DNA from: Candidatus Zhuqueibacterota bacterium
GTDB lineage: Bacteria > SM23-31
Reading direction: 5' to 3'
Length of the DNA stretch: 7,390 nt
NCBI GenBank assembly: GCA_022562855.1
Contig: JADFON010000081.1
Location: 1 to 7,390, forward strand
Below are positions 1,275-7,334 of this stretch, piece by piece. Within the stretch, counting starts at the first letter, position 1; each line of letters begins with the position of its first letter. The notes beneath the pieces are model-generated. The model ran no database searches. It saw only the letters and a list, made by a program, of their open reading frames with translations, and was not told the DNA's origin. Both the position numbers and the translations under genes were made by a program.

Positions 1275-1293
1275 GAACTTTTCCTGATAAATA

Positions 1294-1354: not shown

Positions 1355-1390
1355 GTATATTACATACCAACCAGTTGGTATGTAATATAC
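1355..1390. promoter_or_regulatory. Perfect 17-2-17 inverted repeat, probable TetR-type operator
   Basis: The left arm gtatattacataccaac (1355-1371) and right arm gttggtatgtaatatac (1374-1390) are exact reverse complements with a CA spacer. The core ACCAAC-CA-GTTGGT has the size and symmetry typical of operators bound by TetR-family dimers. It overlaps the -10 box and predicted transcription start of the dehalogenase promoter, so a bound protein would block RNA polymerase. The best candidate ligand is the TetR protein encoded downstream (inference). It could form a hairpin in RNA, but transcription probably starts inside it, so a terminator role is unlikely. Confidence 0.85.
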
Positions 1391-1412
1391 AATGACAGCA
1401 TATTTTTGTCAA
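1384..1412 (-). promoter_or_regulatory. Sigma-70-like promoter of dehalogenase-TetR operon
   Basis: On the minus strand a perfect -35 box TTGACA (1412-1407) is followed by exactly 17 bases and the -10 box TATATT (1389-1384). Initiation would be near 1377, inside the inverted repeat, leaving a leader of about 100 bases before the dehalogenase ATG. The match is close to the bacterial housekeeping consensus. The -10 box lies wholly within the right arm of the operator. Confidence 0.8.
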
Positions 1413-4041: not shown

Positions 4042-4974
4042 ATGAAAGCTATACAAGTAATCAGACTGATATTTTTTCCTGTTCTGCTTTTTTCATCCGC
4101 GCTTTTTGCACAGACCCCTCAGCAAGCAACCTCTCAACAGGAGGAACCATTTAAGGCGTCATGGGTCTTCAATAATCTGAAACCGAGCTTTACATTAAAC
4201 CAAATCTATCAGAATAACTGGTTAAAAGGTGGGGAAGACGCACTTACTTATAATATTATTTTGGATAACGACTTTGAGCGCAAGGGCAAACGGTCTGATT
4301 GGGGTAACGAAATCCTTCTAAAATTCGGGCAGTCAAAAATCGGAAAAGGAGAAAGAAACAACACGCCTAACTCAATAAATATTCGTACTGATCTCAAGCT
4401 GAACTTTGGCAAACAAAGATATTTTAAACCCTTTATTGGAGGTTCTTTAAAAACTCAGATAGCTACCGGTTATAAATTCAGTAAGGATAAACCCAGAGAA
4501 GCGCAATCGGATTTTTGGGACCCGGTTAAAATTGCATACCGGTTCGGAGTTGATCTTAGTTTGGTCAAAGATCTAAAAATTCAAATCAGTACAGACTATA
4601 TAATAGAAAAGGGTAACAAATATGTTCAGATTCATAATATTGACAACAAGAAAACCCCAGACATAATTGAAAAAAGAAAGATTACAAAAAAAATGAGCGT
4701 TTATGTAAAATTCAACAGGAGATTCACCATAAAGGACAGAACTATATCTATCAATTCGAAGATAAATATAAAATCAGCTTTTAAGAATTTTGAAGAGACA
4801 TTTATAGACTGGGCAAACATCTATGACATAAATCTCATCGAATTCGTAAGTTTAAGGATAGATATGCATTACATTTACAACCGCAGCAAATCAAAGCAAG
4901 GGCAATTCCAATATCTTTTGGGAATCACGTTTGCATATGATCTAAAGGATATTTTTTCTAAAGATGAAAAGTAA
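4042..4974 (+). CDS. DUF3078-like outer-membrane beta-barrel protein
   Basis: This 310-residue protein has a Sec signal peptide (hydrophobic IRLIFFPVLLFSSALFAQ, cleavage after residue 24). A Gln-rich linker follows, then repeated amphipathic strands with alternating aromatic and polar residues to the C-terminus, as in outer-membrane barrels. The segment FTLNQIYQNNWLKGGEDALTYNI (50-72), with Trp60 and Lys-Gly-Gly at 62-64, resembles the N-terminal signature of DUF3078 proteins common in Bacteroidota relatives. No function is established for that family, and none is proposed. The Lys/Asn-rich composition and AT-rich codons contrast with the neighbouring ATPase gene. It ends in tandem TAATAA stops, 16 bases from the convergent ATPase stop, with no terminator visible in the gap. 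The barrel assignment is fairly sure; the exact family is less so. Confidence 0.75.
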   Translation: MKAIQVIRLIFFPVLLFSSALFAQTPQQATSQQEEPFKASWVFNNLKPSFTLNQIYQNNWLKGGEDALTYNIILDNDFERKGKRSDWGNEILLKFGQSKIGKGERNNTPNSINIRTDLKLNFGKQRYFKPFIGGSLKTQIATGYKFSKDKPREAQSDFWDPVKIAYRFGVDLSLVKDLKIQISTDYIIEKGNKYVQIHNIDNKKTPDIIEKRKITKKMSVYVKFNRRFTIKDRTISINSKINIKSAFKNFEETFIDWANIYDINLIEFVSLRIDMHYIYNRSKSKQGQFQYLLGITFAYDLKDIFSKDEK

Positions 4975-7283: not shown

Positions 7284-7312
7284 TTGACAGTTTTAGATGT
7301 TTAACGTACAAG
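7284..7312 (+). promoter_or_regulatory. Candidate rightward promoter leading off the window
   Basis: A perfect TTGACA (7284-7289) is followed after 17 bases by TACAAG (7307-7312), four of six matches. Initiation near 7319 would fall inside the 26-bp palindrome. A second possible pair, TTGCAT (7343-7348) and TACTGT (7366-7371), also has a 17-base spacer. Confidence 0.4.
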
Positions 7313-7334
7313 GGATAGGCTAGCCTATCCCTTG
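7309..7334. promoter_or_regulatory. Perfect 26-bp palindrome, candidate operator
   Basis: Left half CAAGGGATAGGCT and right half AGCCTATCCCTTG are exact reverse complements without spacer, centred between 7321 and 7322. The site begins within the candidate -10 box, the same geometry seen at the dehalogenase operator, which suggests repressor control of a gene to the right. It could instead be the hairpin of a terminator (11-bp stem, CTAG loop), but no T tract follows on either strand. Confidence 0.6.

Follow-up and report, generated by a model that had tools for sequence, protein, structure and literature searches.

Gene content of the locus

The window, i.e., the whole stretch of 7,390 nucleotides that was analysed, which is also the whole of its contig, carries on its minus strand a gene for a haloalkane dehalogenase of the HLD-II type (positions 390–1274; NCBIfam NF002938, 414.5 bits, with the cut-off at 241), with a possible ribosome-binding site, AGGA, that can be read from the sequence 7 nt 5' of the dehalogenase ATG (1282–1285, minus strand). 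It is followed on the same strand by the N-terminal 102 residues of a TetR-family repressor (1–306; Pfam TetR_N, PF00440, 61.6 bits against a cut-off of 24). These scores uphold the gene calls of an earlier sequence-only reading of this DNA, in which a TetR-family gene follows one for a haloalkane dehalogenase. From its start at position 306, tetR runs off the contig end, and a search for a contig continuing it found none. The gap between the two genes is 83 nt, in which the promoter scan detected no separate tetR promoter, and which could conceal one belonging to tetR.

The nearest Protein Data Bank matches of the dehalogenase are the ancestral enzyme AncHLD5 and DhaA variants. The residue alignment identifies the nucleophile Asp107, the adjacent Trp108, the acid Glu131 and His273, and this Asp-His-Glu triad with a Trp beside the nucleophile, together with the family score, places the enzyme in HLD-II. 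In the same alignment the second halide-stabilising Asn usual in HLD-II is absent and is replaced by Gln42, which is common to the Chloroflexi relatives L004 and L005, at 71% identity. DmxA of Marinobacter sp. ELB17 is an active natural HLD-II enzyme with Gln in place of the halide-stabilising Asn (PMC6920932), a likeness drawn from the residue description. Because of this active precedent, Gln42 does not exclude the window's dehalogenase from HLD-II.

The repressor fragment contains the TetR_N helix-turn-helix that defines the TetR family, with the recognition helix LTKGSFFHYF, and its best NCBIfam match is AcuR, far under the cut-off (57 versus 247 bits).

Anatomy of the palindrome and promoter

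Upstream of the dehalogenase, the repeat scan identified an inverted repeat, GTATATTACATACCAAC-CA-GTTGGTATGTAATATAC (1355–1390, no strand), in which two arms of 17 nt with 100% complementarity are separated by a spacer of 2 nt. The longest arm obtained by chance was 12 nt in 60 Markov-simulated whole windows and 11 nt in 2000 simulated intergenic regions of 300 bp, and the analytic expectation for such a palindrome is about 1.7 × 10−5 per window; the palindrome is thus beyond chance. At its centre lies a 20-bp core, CATACCAAC-CA-GTTGGTATG (1363–1382, no strand), which is common to distant TetR relatives (see below). The promoter scan placed on the minus strand a −35 box TTGACA (1407–1412, read 1412 to 1407) and, after 17 nt, a −10 box TATATT (1384–1389, read 1389 to 1384), agreeing with the consensus at 11 of 12 positions and with the −10 box lying entirely within the right palindrome arm. 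The two scans therefore confirm the earlier description of a perfect 17-2-17 palindrome that takes in the −10 box of a promoter of the form TTGACA-17-TATATT. By itself the promoter string is unremarkable: the scan counted 20 promoter-like sites in the window, where shuffles lead one to expect 17 ± 4.2. What makes the promoter plausible is where it lies with respect to the palindrome and the gene.

The host assembly, of 2.5 Mb and about 80% completeness, contains no second match to the core at up to two mismatches, and the sole site with three mismatches lies within a coding gene. The uniqueness of the core suggests that the TetR protein is a regulator dedicated to the dehalogenase–tetR unit. 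A literature search with the operator half-sites returned mostly PCR primers.

A core shared with distant TetR relatives

Among the plasmid TetR relatives, a site like CATACCGACTGGTTGGTATG lies 16–32 bp upstream of the TetR start in four of the seven examined first. The set was extended to Chloroflexota and Acidobacteriota genomes and further plasmids, each relative being scored by its best core match, over the 18 non-central positions, in the 300 bp upstream of the helix-turn-helix; near-duplicates and loci chosen by the motif were left out, which gave 39 distant relatives. A core match of at least 13/18, a threshold picked after inspection, is present in 12 of the 13 relatives with the helix TKG(A/S/T)FF(H/Y)(H/Y)F and in 5 of the 26 others (Fisher p = 1.7 × 10−5). 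The helix-bearing relatives are also closer overall, which confounds helix and ancestry in this test, and the link between helix type and core operator is to be taken as an association, not proof. All 18 non-central bases are found upstream of the TetR gene in an acidobacterial locus (L105) and 15–17 of the 18 in many other relatives, and CATACCRACYRGTYGGTATG-like sites lie just upstream of the carrier's own TetR gene in alphaproteobacterial plasmids and Acidobacteriota, so that the core and the recognition-helix type co-occur across phyla. The match in L112 (TATACCTTGGGGTTGGCATG) may be spurious.

A search starting from the DNA site, with one mismatch allowed, found it in 9 of 395 genomes of one phylum and in none with the reversed control; a TetR gene starts beside the site in four of these nine genomes (L061, L062, L065, and L066). 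The searches labelled as the phylum of G016 and the phylum of G023 sampled the same genomes, and represent one phylum, not two. In G004, a near-match with two mismatches was seen with no TetR gene in the listed frames. Core matches on viral contigs were rejected as operators, there being no TetR gene in the locus and several of them looking like coding sequence.

From these comparisons, the core is predicted to act as operator for a TetR subgroup that can be recognised by the helix TKG(A/S)FFHHF together with the operator CATACCRACYRGTYGGTATG (L100–L105, L085–L087, L091, L122–L124, L127, and L128), and to which we assign the window by its LTKGSFFHYF helix and the occurrence of CATACCAAC-CA-GTTGGTATG near its TetR gene. 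One of the relatives (L101) also has a C-terminal TetR_C_13 domain. The neighbouring genes of the subgroup members code for SRPBCC, VOC, DoxX, GyrI-like, and SnoaL-like proteins, the last two names being read from sequence. In several relatives the site directly follows a TTGAC element, indicating that overlap between operator and promoter is probably usual in the subgroup. The same element is part of the −35 box in the window, but there the core starts directly after the −10 box, and the site is found before the dehalogenase gene, whereas in the relatives it is found before tetR. Beyond the 20-bp core, the outer arms are weakly symmetric in the relatives (55 of 168 pairs versus 42 expected, p = 0.026), and their perfect symmetry is peculiar to the window.

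Proposed control of the dehalogenase–tetR unit

To the dehalogenase loci fetched by the dehalogenase itself (32) we added 16 from a family search in one phylum, and removal of L035, which holds only a distant hydrolase, and of the duplicates L020/L023 and L027/L078 left about 45 distinct loci, three of which have almost no upstream DNA. Among these ~45 loci there is no TetR of the window's subgroup, and the core is matched at no more than 13/18 anywhere, which is the chance level for scanning several kilobases. A TetR gene directly adjoins the dehalogenase only in L009 (2251–2841) and L081 (2385–2990), in both cases upstream and of another subgroup, which suggests that such pairings arose repeatedly and independently; TetR-like genes lie farther from the dehalogenase in L015 and L032. 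A conserved pair of adjacent TetR and dehalogenase genes is therefore ruled out and, since only scattered loci carry both, the dehalogenase is paired with TetR occasionally and not as a fixed unit. The sequence-only reading had expected the palindrome to be conserved wherever the gene pair is, and the motif does recur on the TetR side, whereas on the dehalogenase side this expectation cannot be applied, as the two genes do not form a conserved pair.

In all likelihood the neighbouring TetR gene encodes the repressor for which the palindrome is the operator, and the palindrome overlaps the promoter of the dehalogenase–tetR unit; the best overall explanation, which we consider highly likely, is that the TetR protein represses this unit through the palindrome and is released by a ligand. 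A repressor dimer would cover the −10 box together with the predicted transcription start, with two dimers possible given the 36-bp length of the site, and would thus block the promoter of the whole unit, the repressor's own gene included, until a small ligand releases it. TetR binding, repression, co-transcription of the two genes and autoregulation are all inferred here, and the self-regulated switch of the sequence-only reading is in this sense well supported, by the overlap of palindrome and promoter and by the core shared with TetR relatives. In QacR a second dimer binds to the operator, and one might guess by analogy that the perfect outer arms also serve a second dimer.

As reconstructed here, the system is an ordinary self-regulating TetR switch, a further example of a familiar type, and by comparison with other family members its predicted operator is a palindrome at or near the regulator's own promoter. 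In the DhaR-DhaA system of Rhodococcus, too, a haloalkane dehalogenase gene has a TetR-type regulator for a neighbour, but gene order and host differ from those of the window. AcuR of Rhodobacter sphaeroides is a TetR repressor whose gene belongs to the operon it controls, and whose operator, an inverted repeat, overlaps the promoter (PMC3017554), as is predicted for the window; in contrast, its operator is TAATAGAC-N6-GTCTATTA, acuR is the first gene of the operon, and the ligand is acrylate. PaaR of Burkholderia cenocepacia is also a TetR-family repressor, and its operator, ACCGACCGGTCGGT, overlaps the core promoter and has a core that fits the same ACCRACYRGTYGGT pattern as that of the window, a likeness of operator pattern (PMC2770484, PMC9493321). 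PaaR differs in controlling the phenylacetate genes in answer to phenylacetyl-CoA, and in having its operator between the −35 and −10 boxes (PMC2770484, PMC9493321).

The TetR protein could instead mainly control a gene past the contig end, 3' of tetR, the dehalogenase being just one of the genes in a longer unit. Any further genes would lie outside the contig, which stops within tetR, and in the relatives the TetR gene comes first with its partners downstream, but the only operator match with up to two mismatches in the assembly precedes the dehalogenase, the first gene of the unit, and we regard this arrangement as possible but doubtful.

Self-repression as proposed above could also be a dedicated organohalide response, with a haloalkane, or the alcohol or aldehyde formed from it, as the ligand. 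In favour of this, the unit as far as it can be read holds only one gene besides tetR, a dehalogenase whose catalytic triad is intact; the uniqueness of the site in the genome makes the regulator look specific to the unit; and a Gln in the halide-stabilising position can go together with activity, DmxA being an example (PMC6920932). Against it, the dehalogenase–TetR pair is not conserved, the other members of the subgroup adjoin genes for small ligand-binding proteins and not dehalogenases, and the ligand domain of the TetR protein is absent from the contig. We find such a response rather unlikely, and slightly more so its evolutionary version, in which a TetR of the CATACCRAC subgroup would have been recruited to a Gln-type dehalogenase as an organohalide sensor, with a natural halogenated compound or product as ligand. 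The responsiveness to halogenated compounds put forward in the sequence-only reading is thus unsupported: about 45 dehalogenase loci lack the subgroup and the site, the ligand domain lies off the contig, and the neighbours of the relatives differ. Were the ligand an organohalide, the system would supply a new sensor part of natural origin.

Additional control of the divergent FmdA/AmdA-like gene (1575–2558) by the predicted operator appears improbable; the two divergent genes have one common intergenic region, but the operator lies 185–220 bp upstream of the FmdA/AmdA-like start codon, and a promoter-like TTGCAT-17-TACTAT, seen by eye and missed by the scan, is much closer to it, at about 1493–1521, and off the operator. 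A long perfect inverted repeat can also fold in RNA, but the reading of the palindrome as an RNA hairpin or terminator was ruled out by the repeat structure, with a centre of only 2 nt, no T-run and the −10 box spanned, and by the lack of any Rfam match for the palindrome, and it becomes highly improbable when we consider that the core is found again ahead of TetR genes in different phyla and that the terminator-like hairpin of the window sits elsewhere (2597–2634).

The self-repressing dehalogenase–tetR unit, as proposed, would provide a testable operator–repressor pair from a little-sampled phylum, which is represented by only 6 genomes in a 97,973-species collection. This count also bears out, by inference, the placing of the host outside the actinobacterial and proteobacterial cases. 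More generally, the rule that joins the TKG(A/S)FFHHF helix to CATACCRACYRGTYGGTATG could predict operators for many TetR genes that are at present unannotated.

Three further features of the window were observed. A second inverted repeat with perfect 17-nt arms, the only one besides the palindrome, is located at 2597–2634, in the space between the FmdA-like and the metallo-beta-lactamase-fold genes, which converge on it; with its GC-rich stem and 4-nt loop it resembles a terminator hairpin and is probably a bidirectional terminator. The gene at 4042–4974 codes for a DUF3078 protein with a signal-like N-terminus and no NCBIfam match. Finally, a perfect 13-0-13 palindrome, CAAGGGATAGGCTAGCCTATCCCTTG, is found at 7309–7334, about 130 bp upstream of a heavy-metal P-type ATPase gene, and is a possible operator or terminator.
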